A stretch of DNA of 64,000 nucleotides from Methylobacterium sp. CB376 (GTDB lineage: Bacteria > Pseudomonadota > Alphaproteobacteria > Rhizobiales > Beijerinckiaceae): assembly GCF_029714205.1 (NCBI RefSeq), contig NZ_CP121648.1, positions 4,105,001 to 4,169,000 of the forward strand. The letters run 5' to 3'. Position numbers and translations under genes: made by a program. Positions 6,567 through 57,114 of this stretch are shown in pieces. The notes beneath the pieces were generated by a model. It worked only from the letters and a program-made list of their open reading frames with translations. It made no database searches and was not told the origin of the DNA. Every line of letters starts with the position of its first letter. Within the stretch, counting starts at the first letter, position 1.

Positions 6567-7292
6567 GTGATTGTGTCCCGTCTCCCGCTCGCCGCGCTCG
6601 GATTGGCCCTCGCCCTCGCCGCCGGATCGGGCGCCCCGCGGGCCCAGCAACCGCCCGCGCAGGCCAACCCGCTCCCGACCACCACCGATCCGGGGCCGGG
6701 GCCCCGCTCCGGCGAGGCGCCGGCCCCGCCGCTGCCCGAGAAGGCGGTGCCGCCGGGCCCCGCGCCGGCCGGCCCGCGCCAGACCCTGGTGCCGAATCCC
6801 GGGGATCCCTCGGACGTGGACGAGGTGATGCTGCCGGCCAAGCCCGCCGCGATCCTCGCCGGCAACGCCAAGTGGGACGCGGCGGTGCCGACCCTGCGCG
6901 ACGCCTTCGCGCGGCTGGAGGGCGACCTCGCCAAGGCGGGCGTGCGGGCGGTGGGCCGGCCGGTCGCGGTCTTCACCCGCACGGACGACGACGGGTTCCA
7001 GTTCGAGGCGATGCTGCCGATCGAGCAGGTGCCGGACCCGAGGCCCGCCGGCCTGCCGGCCGATCTCCGCTTCGGCAGCACGCCGAGCGGCAAGGCCCTG
7101 CGCTTCGTGCACAAGGGCGCCTACGACGAGATCGACCAGACCTACGAGACGGTGACGGCCTATCTCGACGCCAAGGGCATCATCGTCCAGGACGCCTTCG
7201 TGGAGGAGTACCTGACCGACCTGAGGAGCGCGAGCGACACCGGGCTCGAGGTGAACATCTACGCGCTGCCGAAGGAGGGTGGGCCGCGGTGA
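6567..7292 (+). CDS. exported GyrI-like (effector-binding) domain protein
   Basis: 241 residues from a GTG at 6567, with GGAG 11 bases upstream. VSRLPLAALGLALALAAGSGAPRAQ is a clear signal peptide, followed by a Pro-rich linker to about residue 80. The C-terminal 150 residues (VGRPVAVFTRTDDDGFQFEA, then FGSTPSGKALRFVHKGAYDEIDQTYETV) match the GyrI-like small-molecule-binding fold. Here it stands alone and exported, so a periplasmic ligand-binding or lipid-related role is more likely than transcription control. The frame stays open to 6405 but no better start exists. The stop codon is followed directly by a palindromic repeat. Confidence 0.75.
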   Translation: MIVSRLPLAALGLALALAAGSGAPRAQQPPAQANPLPTTTDPGPGPRSGEAPAPPLPEKAVPPGPAPAGPRQTLVPNPGDPSDVDEVMLPAKPAAILAGNAKWDAAVPTLRDAFARLEGDLAKAGVRAVGRPVAVFTRTDDDGFQFEAMLPIEQVPDPRPAGLPADLRFGSTPSGKALRFVHKGAYDEIDQTYETVTAYLDAKGIIVQDAFVEEYLTDLRSASDTGLEVNIYALPKEGGPR

Positions 7293-7345
7293 TACGACGT
7301 CCGACTGATCCGGGATCCGCTGCGGTCAACCGGAGCCCGGATCAG
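7290..7345 (+). repeat. Palindromic repeat, copy R1
   Basis: Begins at the TGA stop of the GyrI-like gene as TGATACGACGTCCG (compare R3's TGATACG head), then a second head CTGATCCGGG (7305-7314) paired with CCCGGATCAG (7336-7345), a perfect 10-bp stem. The linker and tail modules seen in other copies are missing or decayed here. It sits between convergent genes and may act as a bidirectional transcription end. Confidence 0.7.
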
Positions 7346-13731: not shown

Positions 13732-14037
13732 ATGACCGCGGATGACAAGATCAACGGCCTCACCGTCCTGTCGGCGAGCCACGGCGAGATGATCGCCCGC
13801 CTGTCGGAGGCCCAGGCCGACGTGGCGGCCAAGCAGGTGGCGCTGCAGATGGCGATCGGCTTCCTCGCCCGGATCCTGCGCGGGATCGATTCCGACCATT
13901 ACCGCCACGAACTCGGCGGCTACCTCGCGATGCTGGAGGACGCGCTCACCCGCGACGACCCGGATTCGGACCTCGCCAAGCGGGTGCTCGCCACCGTGCG
14001 GGCGACCCTGGAGACCGGCGACGCCGAGGAGGAGTGA
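13732..14037 (+). CDS. small hypothetical protein downstream of acnA
   Basis: 101 residues (MTADDKINGLTVLSASHGEM), soluble, mostly helical, acidic C-terminus (GDAEEE). I do not recognise a family. Coding is supported by strong codon bias, GGAGACAGCGC before the ATG and a position behind the acnA terminator. The TGA stop is inside the left arm of palindromic repeat R2. Confidence 0.65.
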   Translation: MTADDKINGLTVLSASHGEMIARLSEAQADVAAKQVALQMAIGFLARILRGIDSDHYRHELGGYLAMLEDALTRDDPDSDLAKRVLATVRATLETGDAEEE

Positions 14038-14100
14038 TCCGGGATCCGCTCGATCGAAGCGGATCCCGGATCACGAGCCTGCGCGGCGCCTGAGGGACGC
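14034..14100 (+). repeat. Palindromic repeat, copy R2
   Basis: A perfect 17-bp stem: left arm GTGATCCGGGATCCGCT (14034-14050), 7-base loop, right arm 14058-14074. The left arm contains the TGA stop of the preceding gene (14035-14037). It is followed by the family linker (CCTGCGCGGCGCCTGAG, 14079-14095), ending near the 3' end of the convergent DUF3108 gene. Confidence 0.85.
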
Positions 14101-14111
14101 CGACAGCCGCA

Positions 14112-17064: not shown

Positions 17065-17143
17065 TGGCGGACCCGGGCTTCGCTCAGGCGCCGCGCGGGC
17101 TTGTGATACGTTTTCCGGAAGTGATCTTCCGGAAAACGTATCA
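17065..17143 (-). repeat. Palindromic repeat, copy R3
   Basis: Minus-strand orientation. A perfect 18-bp head: TGATACGTTTTCCGGAAG (17104-17121) with its complement at 17126-17143, loop of 4. It is followed (17074-17102) by the linker, reading AAGCCCGCGCGGCGCCTGAG on the minus strand. The outermost TGA of the head is the stop codon of the peroxidase-like gene (17141-17143). The head sequence differs from the TGATCCGGG heads, yet the linker is the same. Confidence 0.85.
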
Positions 17144-28424: not shown

Positions 28425-29122
28425 TGAAGCGCCTGCTGACCTGCGCGGCCGTGGCGGGGCTCGGCGCCTGCGCCCAGCCCCTCGACCCGATCGGACGCCC
28501 GCCGCTGCTGACGCCGATCGGCACGGGCCTCGCCGCCCCGCGCGAGCCGCTGCCGGCCTCCTTCGCGGCCACGCCCCGGCGCAGCTACAGCTCGACCTGG
28601 GCACCCGGCGCCGCCGACCTGTTCCAGGACCCGCGCGCCCGCAACATCGGCGACGTGATCACGGTGAGCATCTCGATCAACGACAAGGCGCAGTTCGACA
28701 ACGCCACCGATCGCTCGCGCAGCCAGAAATCGTCGCTCGGCTTCGATTTCAGCTACGGCGTCTCGGGCGTGAAGGACTCGGCCACCGCCGATGCGGGCAT
28801 CCGCTCGGGCACCGAGACCAAGGGCAACGGCACCATCGACCGCAAGGAGAACCTGAGCCTGTCGGTCGCGGCCGTGGTCACCGACACGCTGCCGAACGGC
28901 AACCTCCTGATCAGCGGCTCGCAGGAGGTGCGCGTCAACAGCGAGGTGCGCGTGCTCACCGTGGCGGGCATCGTCCGGCCGCGCGACATCACCCGCAAGA
29001 ACACGATCGACTACGACAAGATCGCGGAGGCGCGGATCTCCTACGGCGGGCGCGGCCGCATCACCGACGTGCAGGACCCGACCATCGGGCAGCGCGTCTT
29101 CGAGACCGTCACGCCGTTCTGA
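28424..29122 (+). CDS. flgH: flagellar L-ring protein FlgH
   Basis: 232 residues. Lipoprotein signal with lipobox (AVAGLGAC, Cys at residue 16), then LFQDPRARNIGDVITVSISI, NGNLLISGSQEVRVNSEVR and VAGIVRPRDITRKNTI, all FlgH hallmarks. Forms the outer-membrane ring of the flagellum. The stop codon is the first TGA of repeat R4. Confidence 0.97.
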   Translation: MKRLLTCAAVAGLGACAQPLDPIGRPPLLTPIGTGLAAPREPLPASFAATPRRSYSSTWAPGAADLFQDPRARNIGDVITVSISINDKAQFDNATDRSRSQKSSLGFDFSYGVSGVKDSATADAGIRSGTETKGNGTIDRKENLSLSVAAVVTDTLPNGNLLISGSQEVRVNSEVRVLTVAGIVRPRDITRKNTIDYDKIAEARISYGGRGRITDVQDPTIGQRVFETVTPF

Positions 29123-29221
29123 TCCGCTGTCCGGACGATCACGTCCGGACAGCGTCTGACAAGCCCGCGCGGCGCGTGAGCGAAGCCGACATCCGTATTG
29201 CGAAGCAATCCGTCGGATGTC
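29120..29221 (+). repeat. Palindromic repeat, copy R4 (head, linker and tail)
   Basis: Starts with TGATCC, whose TGA is the flgH stop. Head: perfect 12-bp stem CGCTGTCCGGAC (29125-29136) with its complement at 29143-29154. Linker: AAGCCCGCGCGGCGCGTGAG (29161-29180). Tail: outer stem GACATCCG (29188-29195) with CGGATGTC (29214-29221), enclosing an inner hairpin ATTGC-GAA-GCAAT (29197-29209). The most complete copy in the window. Confidence 0.88.
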
Positions 29222-29223
29222 GT

Positions 29224-29309
29224 ATGACACGCCCGCGCGGCGCTTGAGCGACGCCGACATCCGCGTTGCCGAAATGGGAGATGGCGAAGCCATCAACCGG
29301 ATGTCGGAT
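29224..29309 (+). repeat. Palindromic repeat, copy R5 (linker and tail, no head)
   Basis: Directly follows R4. Linker GCCCGCGCGGCGCTTGAG (29231-29248), tail outer stem GACATCCG (29256-29263) with CGGATGTC (29298-29305), inner hairpin GATGGC-GAA-GCCATC (29280-29294). The inner arm sequence differs from R4 but pairing and the GAA loop are kept. Confidence 0.85.
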
Positions 29310-29376
29310 GACGGCGCCGGTTCTGCGGTGTTCGGGGCATACCCATTCCGCTCGATCCCTTTCGCATGGCGGATTG

Positions 29377-29444
29377 GGGCGTCGCTCACGCGCCGCGCGG
29401 GCGCGCGATCCGGGATCCGCTGCGATCAACCGGATCCCGGATCA
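29377..29444 (-). repeat. Palindromic repeat, copy R6 (head and linker)
   Basis: Minus-strand orientation. Head: perfect 13-bp stem GATCCGGGATCCG (29407-29419) with 29431-29443, loop of 11. Linker at 29377-29404 (reads GCGCCCGCGCGGCGCGTGAG on the minus strand). The rimM stop codon (TCA at 29442-29444) is the outer TGA of the head. Confidence 0.85.
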
Positions 29445-30438: not shown

Positions 30439-30566
30439 TGTCTCACCTCTTCACTCAGTCGCTTGTCACCACGTGCGCGGGAGACGCGCGATCGCGCTCC
30501 CGCCTTCCGGAGGGGCCGCCGGGCGGCACGCCTCCCCATCGATCTTCCCGCTGTCGAGAACGTCGA

Positions 30567-30656
30567 TTCCCAAGCCGGGCCGGTCGGCCCGATCACTTCC
30601 CAAGCCGGGCCGATCGGCCCGGTCACTTCCCAAGCCGGGCCGGTCGGCCCGCTCAC
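30567..30656 (-). repeat. Three tandem 30-bp units after the ffh tail
   Basis: Units 30567-30596, 30597-30626 and 30627-30656, differing by a few bases. Each holds a short palindrome GGGCCG-NT-CGGCCC and, on the minus strand, a GTGA. The TGA of the ffh tail (30653-30655) belongs to the first unit met by the ribosome, so the array extends from the stop codon into the ffh-rpsP spacer. Confidence 0.9.
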
Positions 30657-30859
30657 TTCTTCTTGCCGAAGGGCAGGCCCCCGAGGCCCGGCAACCCCGG
30701 CATCTTGTTCCCGCCGAGGCCCGGCAGGCCCGGCGCCTTCCCGGGCGCGCCCCCGAGCCCGGGCGGCATCGGCGGCAGCTTGCCGCCGAACTGCTTCTCC
30801 AGGGCGGCGATCTGCTCGGGCGTGGGCTCCGGCATGCCGCCGCCCATCATCCGGCCCAA
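30653..30859 (-). CDS. ffh: C-terminal tail of Ffh, out of frame with the main gene
   Basis: This frame encodes GRMMGGGMPEPTPEQIAALE followed by a Gly/Met/Pro-rich end finishing GLPFGKKK, exactly the kind of C-terminus seen on alphaproteobacterial Ffh proteins. It continues the ffh gene after a one-base shift in the C-run at 30860-30864 (five C where six would restore the frame). I read it as part of ffh, not a separate gene; an independent TTG start at 30859 is formally possible. Confidence 0.7.
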   Translation of the reverse strand: MGRMMGGGMPEPTPEQIAALEKQFGGKLPPMPPGLGGAPGKAPGLPGLGGNKMPGLPGLGGLPFGKKK

Positions 30860-32467: not shown

Positions 32468-32632
32468 CCGTGATCCCGGCTCGCGGCGCCGCTCCGCCCA
32501 ACGCCGGACGCGCCCGAGGGCGCGTCGCGCTGTCGGGCGTTGGCCTCCGGCCTCGGGGGACCGGTCGGCGGGTCGGGTCGGGACGAAACGTCGCCTGGAA
32601 GCCGGAGCCCCTAGAGGGTGTCGAGGCGAATG

Positions 32633-34381: not shown

Positions 34382-34396
34382 CGACCGGCCCCCTCG

Positions 34397-34480
34397 CCCC
34401 GCAGGGCTTCCTCAGCCCCGCAGGGCTCCCTCAGCCCCGCAGGGCCTCTTGGCCCCGCAGGGCCTCTTGGCCCCGCAGGG
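34397..34480. repeat. Five short repeats with CCCCGCAGGG core
   Basis: CCCCGCAGGG occurs at 34397, 34416, 34435, 34453 and 34471, with spacings of 19, 19, 18 and 18 bases. The array fills the region just upstream of the SDR start and downstream of minE, so it lies in the SDR promoter or leader. The change from 19 to 18 bases coincides with a different intervening sequence (CTTCCTCAG type versus CCTCTTGG type). Confidence 0.88.
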
Positions 34481-34553
34481 CCTCCCCGCGTCATCGCGCG
34501 AAGGAGGCCCGGGTTGCAAGCGCGAGGGGCCCGGTCTCCGGGGCGCGGGCCGG

Positions 34554-54614: not shown

Positions 54615-56669
54615 ATGCCGATTCTGCACCACACCCGATCGCTCGCGGCGCGCATCGTCCTCGCGGCCCTGGCGCCGTGTCTCGTCCTCGCCGGCGCCGT
54701 GCTGCTGGCGGGGAGCGAGCGGGCGCGGCAGTGGGACGAGATGGGCCGGGTCGAGCGGCACGTCGACCTCGCGGCGGCGCTGAGCCGCTTCGTCCACGAG
54801 ACGCAGATCGAGCGCGGCGCGTCGAACCTGTTCCTCGGCGCGAAGGGCGGCCAGTTCCGGGCCGAGGTGGCGGCCCAGCGCGAGCGGACGGACGCCGCCC
54901 TCGCCGCCCTGACGGAGATCCTCCCCGCCGAGGCGGCGGATCCCGGCGAGGGGCTCGCGCGCCGCGCCGCGGCGCTGCGCCGGGCGCCCGCGCTGCTGCG
55001 CGGCCACCGGTCCGCGGTCGACGCGCTGGCGGCGACGGCCAAGCAGAACCTCGCCCTCTACACGGGCCTGATCGACGAGGCGCTCGGCATGGTCGGGGAG
55101 CTGTCGCGCCGCGCCGCGCACCCGGCGATCGCGGCGCGGCTCCTCGCCTACGCGGCGCTGCTGGCGCTCAAGGAGGAGGCGGGGCGCGAGCGGGCCACCG
55201 CGGCGGCGATCTTCGCGGCGGGCAGCGCCGACCTCGCGGCGTTCGAGCGCCTCGCGGGGCTGGCGGCCAGCCAGGCCGCGCGGGAGGGCGCCTTCCGCCT
55301 CTGGGCGGAGCCGGACGCCGCGGAGGCGGTCGCGGCGGTCGAGGCCCAGGAGGCGTCCCGGGAGGTGGCGCGGCTGCGCCGCCTCGTCCTCGACGCGCCG
55401 CCGGGCTCCCCGCTCGCCTTCCGCGACGCGCCCGCGTGGTTCGGGCTGGCGACGCGCCGGATCGAGGGCCTGAAGGGGGTCGAGGACCGGCTGACGGCGG
55501 AGATGCGCGAGGCTGCGCGGGCGGTGCGGGCCGAGGCGGGCCGCGCGCTCGCGGCCTGGACCGGCGCGGGGCTCGGCGCGGTCGGCCTCTCGGTCCTGCT
55601 GGCGGCGGCGATCGCGCGCGCCATCGCCCGGCCGCTCGTCCTGGTGTCGCGGACCATCGCGGCGATCGGTCGGGGCGAGGAGGCTCCGGCCCTGCCGCCG
55701 GGCGGCCCGCGCGAGGTCCGCGCGCTCGCCGAGGCGGCCGAACGCCTCCGCGAGGGCGTGAGCGAGCGGCGCCGGATCCGCGCCGCGCAGGAGGAGGAGG
55801 GCCGCCGGCGGGCGCTCGCCCAGCGCGCCGCCATGCAGGCGGTGGCGGAGCGCTTCGAGGCCCGGGTCGGGCGCATCATCGCGGCGGTCGCCGACGCGGC
55901 GCGGGAGCTGCAGCGCGCGGCGGAGGGACTCGCCTGGAATGCGGCCGCGACGGCCGAGCGCTCCGCGACCGTGTCGGGCGCCGCCGGGGGCGCCGCCGCG
56001 CACGTCGCGGCGGTCACCGCCGCCGCCGAAGCCCTCGCCGCCTCGGTCGGCGAGATCGGCCGCGAGGTGCGGGATTCCGCCGACCTCGCCCGGAGCGCGG
56101 TCGAGGAGGCGGCCCGCACCCGGGCGGTGGTAGGGGATCTCAGCGCCGCCGCGGGCCAGATCGGGGACGTGGCGGGGCTGATCGCGGCGATCGCGGCCCG
56201 GACCAACCTGCTGGCGCTGAACGCCGCCATCGAGGCGGCGCGGGCGGGCGAGGCCGGGCGCGGCTTCGCGGTCGTCGCCGCCGAGGTCAAGCACCTCGCC
56301 GCGCAGACCGCGCGCGCGACGGACGAGATCACCGGGCAGATCGGCCGGATCCAGGGCTCGACCGGGGCGGCGGTGGCGGCGATCGGCCGGATCTCCGGGG
56401 TGATCGGCCGGATCAGCCTCGGGTCCGAGGCGATCGCCGCGGAGGTGGCCGGGCAGGGCGAGGCGGCGCGCGAGATCGGCCACAACGTCGCGCGGGCCGC
56501 CCTCGGGACGGGCGCGGTCACCCGCACCATCGCGGGCGTCGCCGGGGCCGCGGAGGAGACCGGTGCCGCCTCGGCCCGCCTGCTCGCCTCCGCCACCGAC
56601 CTGGCGAGCCAGGCCGAGACCCTGGGCGGGGAGGTCGCGCGCTTCCTCGATTCCGTGCGGGCGGCCTGA
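54615..56669 (+). CDS. methyl-accepting chemotaxis protein with Nit-type sensor domain
   Basis: 684 residues. TM1 at about 11-33, a large periplasmic helical domain (about 35-310) with [20 protein letters not shown], a nitrate/nitrite-sensing (NIT)-like signature, TM2 at about 313-338, a HAMP region to about 390, and the signalling tip [20 protein letters not shown] ... [20 protein letters not shown] near 521-570. Relays to CheA/CheW; none is nearby. ATG at 54615 has GGAAGG upstream. It sits just behind the puf terminator; its stop is in repeat R7. Confidence 0.88.
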
Positions 56670-56794
56670 TCCGGGATCGGCTTGATCGAAGCGGATCCCG
56701 GATCGCGAGCCTGCGCGGCGCCTGAGCGCGGCGCCTGAGCGAAGCCGACATCCGCATGGCCGAAATCGGAGATGGCGAAGCCATCAACCGGATG
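56667..56794 (+). repeat. Palindromic repeat, copy R7 (head, doubled linker, tail)
   Basis: Head 56668-56682 with 56690-56704 (15 bp, one mismatch); its TGA is the chemoreceptor stop. The linker GCGCGGCGCCTGAGC appears at 56713-56727 and part of it again at 56729-56740. Tail GACATCCG (56747-56754), inner hairpin GATGGC-GAA-GCCATC (56771-56785) and CCGGATG to 56794. The repeat ends five bases before the ATG of the higA-like frame. Confidence 0.85.
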
Positions 56795-56798
56795 GCGC

Positions 56799-57114
56799 AT
56801 GCAGACCACCCATCCATCCGGGCGAAATCCTGGCCGACGCGCTGGACGAGATCGGCGTGACGCCGACCGAGCTGGCACGGCAGATCAAGGTGCCGCACAA
56901 CCGCATCGGCCAGATCATCAACGGCAAGCGCGCCATCACGGGCGACACCGCGTTGCGCCTGGGCCACTGGTTCAGGACGAGCGCCGCGTTCTGGATCAAC
57001 CTGCAGGCCGCCTACGATCTGCGCGTGGCCGAGCAGGAGGCCGGGGCCGAGATCGGCGCGCTGCCCGTCCGCCCGGAAGCCGAGCCGCAACCGGCGCAGC
57101 CGCGCATGCCGTAG
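56799..57114 (+). CDS. higA: HigA-type antitoxin (XRE/HTH), 5' frameshift, no toxin
   Basis: The frame ending at 57114 encodes IHPGEILADALDEIGVTPTE, LARQIKVPHNRIGQIINGKR and AITGDTALRLGHWFRTSAAF, the full HigA/VapI antitoxin core (IHPGEIL, HTH, FWINLQ). It has no start codon before a GTG at 56857, which would remove helix 1. The ATG at 56799 (MQTT) is in another frame; dropping one C from the run at 56809-56811 joins them. Repeat R7 abuts the 5' end, where a higB toxin gene would be expected, and none is present. Probably an orphan or decaying antitoxin. Confidence 0.7.

Follow-up and report, generated by a model that had tools for sequence, protein, structure and literature searches.

A palindromic repeat that abuts the stop codons of several genes in Methylobacterium sp. 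CB376 is probably a non-autonomous, MITE-like transposable element of Methylobacterium, inserted at TGA with a 3-bp duplication, and the excess of its copies at stop codons looks more like target choice than like selection. Because the TGA of a stop codon appears to be duplicated on insertion, the element would be able to spread in a crowded genome and leave the genes unbroken. In a dense genome, safe sites are a necessity for mobile elements: Tn7 uses a single site at glmS, and introns sit behind terminators. If our reading is true, the use of stop codons offers thousands of harmless targets at which both the protein and its stop are left intact, and the same hairpin is appended to many mRNAs, making 3′-end regulation by one repeat family testable. 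Stop targeting would also explain why palindromes of this kind are found directly at stops (distance zero), where they are easily taken for terminators.

Six elements lie in the window, by which we mean the whole 64,000-nucleotide stretch of DNA that was analyzed. Its genes were predicted with a codon-usage gene caller and six of them were checked against Pfam, which recognized the GyrI-like, CMD family, FlgH, RimM and chemoreceptor products and gave no match for the product of the 13732 gene. The elements and the triplets that flank them are as follows.

7290..7344, minus strand: element 1, a class A head hairpin (7306-7344) with a short tail-end remnant, TACGACGTCCGAC, at 7293-7305
7290-7292: stop of the GyrI-like gene, adjoining the tail-end side of element 1, whose head begins 16 nt further
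14035..14037, plus strand: stop TGA of the 13732 gene, which is the left triplet of element 2
14038..14110 (end approximate), plus strand: element 2, with class A head, core and truncated tail
17076..17140, minus strand: element 3, with class C head (CGTTTTCCGGAAG/CTTCCGGAAAACG) and core; tail lost or unrecognizable, right end uncalled
17141..17143, minus strand: stop of the CMD-family (peroxidase-like) gene, which is the left triplet of element 3
29120..29122, plus strand: left target triplet TGA of element 4, the native flgH stop, at the same codon in 28 other-species loci
29123..29308, plus strand: element 4, with class B head (CGCTGTCCGGACG atca CGTCCGGACAGCG), core, tail module 1, core and tail module 2
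29309..29311, plus strand: right copy of the target triplet, TGA, of element 4, followed by CGGCGCC
29340..29441, minus strand: element 5, with class A head adjoining rimM, degenerate tail and right triplet TGC
29442..29444, minus strand: stop (TGA) of rimM, which is the left triplet of element 5
56667..56669, plus strand: stop TGA of the chemoreceptor gene, which is the left triplet of element 6
56670..56799, plus strand: element 6, with class A head, core and tail hairpin; right triplet TGC at 56800-56802, read as a decayed TGA

An earlier reading of these letters by themselves (the sequence-only reading) had counted seven copies. Repeats are present at all the places it named, but they form six elements, since the repeat at 29224-29309 belongs to the 29120-29311 element as its second tail module. 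It had also equated the first TGA of the head with the stop codon of the adjacent gene in six copies; the flanking TGA is indeed a stop in all six, but it stands directly before the head in only five, the exception being the copy at 7290. That same copy, with its gene at the tail-end side, contradicts the statement that the head always faces the gene that it ends, as does a minority of elements lying tail-first on a stop in the genome sample described below (L064, L066, L073 and L095).

Reading outward from the stop, an element consists of the TGA triplet, a head hairpin, a short link (e.g., CGAGC or CAAGC), the core (GCGCGGCGCYTGAGCGAAGCC), a tail hairpin (GACATCCG...CGGATGTC or a relative of it), usually GGA or GTA, and the far triplet, with the unit of core and tail occurring one to three times. 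The 54 elements with a called right end measure 89-256 bp from head to tail end (median 118 bp), and, judged from length alone, no coding capacity is ascribed to them. The left and right end profiles have TMCGNNNTCCG in common and thus represent inverted-repeat ends, although some right ends in the profile are mis-called. The head stem varies among classes and species, while its pairing is retained via compensatory changes. In an alignment of 11 head types, which we picked from loci of this genome (G000) and of G108, G241 and G227 (G numbers denote genomes of the genus, G194 being the conspecific Methylobacterium sp. WSM2598), 97.3% of cells are paired, compared with no more than 48% in slid versions of the alignment, and 12 of 17 pairs show changes on both sides. 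By eye, most heads of class A, of G108 and of G241 allow the triplet to base-pair with a TCA in the 3′ arm. The transcript of one element copy folds at -80.1 kcal/mol (z -4.2), and Rfam at its gathering threshold gave no match at the elements. This genome and WSM2598 share the flgH insertion and its flanks, and the first tail module differs between them (29123-29308 vs. L112), as if tail modules had been exchanged between copies within one site.

A search with one head half-site, allowing at most one mismatch, returned 198+192 matches in this genome (a perfect palindrome being counted on both strands) and none with the reversed pattern that served as a control. A 14-base form occurs 138+135 times here and 130+137 times in WSM2598, whereas each of the remaining 109 Methylobacterium genomes examined has 0-5 matches per strand. 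At the same tolerance of one mismatch, the core has 383 matches in this genome, 117 in G108 and 77 in G241; it is present in 60 of 111 Methylobacterium genomes, with 0 control matches in the genomes listed. An order-wide draw of 297 genomes, six of them from the genus, contained the core in seven, three within the genus and four outside it with one single-mismatch match each. A consensus-like element compared with plasmid records gave one 46-base match. The matches listed suggested strand polarity along the chromosome, but they lack a perfect arm on the minus strand (14058-14073), and GC skew in the sampled stretches has no clear switch with which polarity could be compared; the idea was dropped.

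Other repeats are present as well. A second palindrome family, CTAGAGCAGCACCCGATCACGTTGCAATCGGGTGCTGCTCTAG (L046:5112-5156, L063, L042, L043), often starts with TAG, which coincides with a called stop in 3 of 13 strand-wise matches. A further palindrome, CTAAGCGGAATTGC...GCAATTCCGCTTAG, starts on a TAA stop at L033:16106-16138 and has a TGA version at L057:12915. Within the window, Rfam matched the ffh sRNA family RF01793 on the minus strand at 32503-32554 (47 bits, cut-off 35), and there are short tandem repeats at 30562-30659 (a 30-nt unit with CCCAAGCCGGGCCGGTCGGCCCG) and at 34387-34486 (GCCCCGCAGGGC units, with a 15-nt difference between strains).

The triplet before the head was tabulated in an unbiased sample of this genome, consisting of the window and 80 stretches at even spacing (1.659 Mb in total, 25 kb of it N), and in a second set of 63 WSM2598 elements away from the sites of the first, which together comprise 123 elements with head and core. 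In the 60 elements of the sample the triplet is TGA in 51, TCA in six, and TAA, TCG and CCA in one each; the pooled elements have TGA in 104, TCA in 11 and other triplets in eight. TGA, TCA or TAA account for 116 of the 123 left triplets, which fits a TNA target.

Most of these TGAs are stop codons. The sequence-only reading had named an excess at stops as support for its proposal, and the sample shows one: 34 of the 51 TGA-flanked elements in the 1.66 Mb stand on a coding stop by an in-frame coding score (32 on a called stop), and the other 17, about one third, lie away from any recognizable stop. In the pooled set, 67 of 104 TGA elements exactly end a coding frame, against a null of 13.5% (p about 6e-33) that adds to the share of stop TGAs among all TGAs that are stop or intergenic (1,074 of 9,112, or 11.8%) the 1.7% of intergenic TGAs passing the coding score. 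Removal of composites, in which a second head lies just upstream (5 of 123), leaves 67 of 100. The position is also exact: 34 elements lie at a stop and four at 1-100 nt downstream, where the available TGAs number 1,074 and 688, respectively (odds ratio 5.4, p=1.6e-4), and 13 of the 51 lie farther than 100 nt from a stop or elsewhere. A repeat placed at random 3′ of genes and merely carrying TGA as a fixed base, which had been named as the explanation that would undo the proposal, does not fit this contrast between distance zero and the next 100 nt. In G108, a left end was located in 22 of 30 fetched loci (30 of 117 matches), with TGA in all 22 and a coding end in 14; in G241, 27 of 30 fetched loci (30 of 77 matches) gave a left end, with TGA in all 27 and a coding end in 17. 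These two stop counts stand without a computed null, and the search expression missed some ends, as the 11 omitted loci by eye include a TCG left end, a TGA left end and headless copies. The coincidence with stop codons exceeds chance in this genome and is seen again in two further species. In G241, a C directly precedes the TGA in 26 of the 27 elements (by eye), compared with 546 of 977 TGA stops of this genome, so the recognition site may be wider, for example CTGA.

If the triplet is a target duplication, it should recur at the far end. Right ends were called by pairing in 54 of the 60 sample elements (the other six were omitted) and in 56 of the 63 in the WSM2598 set; among the 54, some calls seem doubtful (e.g., GTG, GCC, ATG) and were retained. 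Left and right triplets are identical in 31 of 54 elements of the sample (26 TGA, 5 TCA), against 23.8 by shuffling (p=4e-5). Five of six elements with TCA on the left have TCA on the right, the sixth having TGA, while none of the 46 with TGA on the left has TCA on the right (p=2e-6). Only 26 of these 46 carry TGA on the right, and we read the remaining right triplets (CGA, TGC, TAA and others) as decay or mis-called ends. The association is weaker in the WSM2598 set alone (TCA on both sides in 3/5 vs. TGA/TCA in 4/47, p=0.014); with both sets pooled the figures are 8/11 and 4/93 (p=2.8e-7), and with composites left out there are eight TCA/TCA, three TCA/TGA and four TGA/TCA elements. A search for class B heads preceded by TCA returned 22 matches. 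Single tailed elements among them, recognized by eye, have TCA on both sides at L194, L195, L201, L207 and L210 and a right TCG at L206; two of these copies, L201 and L207, also belong to the sample, as L095 and L064, respectively. We excluded the composites L191, L202 and L211, and the remaining matches are reverse strands of internal joints or ends.

The same history can be read from relatives without the element. The flgH-rimM stretch was matched in 109 other-species genomes, and the best 28 of the 109 loci, all of them at flgH, were fetched. None of the 28 differs in the position of the flgH stop, which is TGA in 26 and TAG in two; by eye, it is followed by CGGC in 17, the bases with which the sequence after the second TGA of the element begins in this genome. 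Most relatives thus read TTC-TGA-CGGC where this genome reads TTC-TGA-(element)-TGA-CGGC, and this element-free site indicates that the stop is native and that the element was inserted there with a 3-bp target duplication. In G227, one of the 28, an element with a different head occupies the same flgH codon, again with TGA on both sides, and is followed by a same-strand gene that by resemblance we take to be fliL. When 14 further genes were compared with three relatives, 11 were matched; by gapless projection, eight of the 11 end at the same codon in at least one relative (TGA in seven, TAA in one), and for the other three the relatives' stops are 1-3 codons away. The genes that end at the same codon in relatives without the element include sodB, atpF and gatB. 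At atpF, a hairpin and T-run resembling the relatives' atpF terminator, recognized by eye, sits beyond the element. Of the two origins that the sequence-only reading had offered, insertion with a TGA target preference is supported by the triplet agreement beyond chance, by the empty flgH sites and by the concordant results in G108 and G241.

In the ~165 kb aligned between this genome and WSM2598, in which several larger differences are present, no polymorphic insertion was identified, so none was caught in the act. A segment of ~1.3 kb at L054:17363-18675 is present in this genome and missing from WSM2598, and is probably an insertion sequence. At 29122-29444, where many of the 28 relatives have a gene starting ATGGC directly after flgH (presumably fliL, from its position), this genome has the convergent rimM; the flgH junction has thus been rearranged, with two elements at the seam. 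In the relatives at L132 and L135, flgH ends in TAG and is followed by different sequence resembling a hairpin (TAGAGCGC.. and TAGCGCGC..), as though this flgH site had also been used by a family anchored on TAG.

Taken together, the native stop, the duplicated triplet and the conserved ends are best read as the insertion of a mobile element. Both ends are hairpins built on related terminal repeats (T-M-C-G-N-N-N-T-C-C-G...), and a transposase acting in trans would insert the element at TGA and duplicate three bases. The head side would join the 3′ side of the TGA, with the tail-first arrangement (TCA as seen from the element) in the minority. Stop TGAs hold ~5 times the share of elements expected from even use of stop and intergenic TGAs. 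Such an insertion would keep the reading frame and stop intact and put a stable hairpin on the mRNA directly after the stop. We advance more tentatively, as a serious possibility that falls somewhat short of an even chance, that the element targets the TGA stop as such, in an orientation-specific and stop-duplicating manner, served by an unrecognized trans-acting enzyme that would recognize TGA (CTGA in one species). An autonomous partner was sought as inverted end-motif pairs 0.6-4 kb apart with equal TNA triplets, giving 0 candidates in 2.56 Mb of partly masked genomes, and a stricter scan likewise gave no end-motif pairs.

A less probable explanation, which we nevertheless take seriously, is that insertion occurs at any TGA (or TNA) and that only copies at stops survive, a hairpin behind a stop being harmless or useful, for example in mRNA 3′ protection or ribosome release. 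All 60 sample elements lie outside called genes, with no head inside one or overlapping one by >10 nt, and the conserved pairing of the hairpin would be expected if it were useful. The next gene is convergent at 14 of 29 at-stop copies vs. 285 of 972 (p=0.04), and where it lies on the same strand, the gap, reduced by a nominal 120 bp, is longer than 100 nt in 12 of 15 cases, compared with a plain gap of >100 nt at 272 of 687 other stops. At-stop elements therefore avoid tight operons, and selection does act. Intergenic TGAs a few nucleotides downstream of a stop should, however, be equally harmless, yet they hold four elements against 34. Divergence is also alike in the two groups of copies: class A copies differ by 6.27 edits at stops and 6.38 elsewhere over ~63 nt (n=55 and 32; p=0.67), and in the young G241 family, in which 26 of 29 copies differ by 0-5 edits over 103 nt and the rest by 8-17, the stop fraction is similar to that of older families. 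Since nearby TGAs are little used, divergence is equal and the young family is similarly distributed, the excess at stops looks like the outcome of target choice rather than of slow selection.

It is unlikely that the element is instead of the REP/BIME type, with a RAYT-like HUH transposase as its mobilizing enzyme and TGA serving, like GTAG in classical REPs, as a left tag within the recognized hairpin. Like such repeats it is short, palindromic, intergenic and present in high copy number, and GTAG REPs are reported to often supply the TAG stop of flanking ORFs (PMC3733652). The class A heads are also strongly biased toward one strand of the triplet, with 87 TGA and three TCA against 17 and eight for the B and C heads combined; a plain TNA duplication predicts equal frequencies, so the class A ratio goes against it. 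One possible cause of the bias is that the triplet base-pairs with a TCA in the 3′ arm, which is also what a tag within a hairpin would be expected to do. Against a REP-type origin, the outer triplets are direct (TGA...TGA) rather than inverted, and an element with TCA at one end tends to carry it at the far end too. The Y1_Tnp domain (PF01797) is absent from this genome and also from G194, G108, G241, G213, G201 and G158; it was found in 15 of 111 genomes of the genus, including the well-stocked carrier G252 (51 core matches) and others in which copies are few, and in 5 of 14 controls. The weakest alternative, also raised by the sequence-only reading, is a cassette that brings both stop codon and terminator to its neighbors, and we give it very little credence: stop and hairpin are adjacent and the one transcript folded is very stable, but the stop-codon half is already contradicted by the native stops at the same codon in relatives (flgH, sodB, atpF, gatB and others), no U-tract follows the head (mean 0.65 and at most 2 T in 12 nt, 60 elements), the apparent native atpF terminator is kept downstream of the element, and the G227 element sits between flgH and the next gene on the same strand.

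Contact between a repeat and stop codons is not in itself a novelty, since the termini of GTAG REPs are reported to often supply TAG stops. The GTAG- and CGTC-tagged REPs resemble our MITE-like element in being short palindromes with many copies, often near gene 3′ ends; the element differs in that its tag is TGA and is directly repeated on both sides, and in being a composite of 89-256 bp with core and tail in a genome without a RAYT-type gene (PMC3733652). The IS1031 group of the IS5 family shares with the element a 5′-TNA-3′ target and a 3-bp direct repeat, and ISLrh, in particular, is reported at TGA; the one terminal repeat printed there and compared by us (17 bp, starting GAACCTGTC) is unlike TMCGNNNTCCG (PMC12016507). 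Our search of the open-licence literature found no report of a stop-codon-targeting element in Methylobacterium. Bradyrhizobium belongs to the same order as Methylobacterium. Its Br-REP1 and Br-REP2 are palindromes in 3′ UTRs, at about 200 and at least 50 intergenic sites, with a different sequence, and the section on them does not report anchoring at stop codons (PMC5082802); a TGA at one end of Br-REP2 would seem to point the wrong way for a stop at that end (PMC5082802).

What sets the element apart from MITEs is that it uses stop codons exactly and has an orientation preference. Target duplication, on the other hand, is a class feature of MITEs. Bacterial MITEs are also, like the element, short and non-coding, with inverted-repeat ends, and form RNA hairpins near genes (PMC3733652). 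The same genus harbors MiniMdi3, a MITE of M. extorquens related to ISMdi3, which differs from the element in its length of about 400 bp; 4 and 8 MITEs are tabulated for two genomes (PMC2680597). We file the present element among the MITE-like elements, as a new variant within them.
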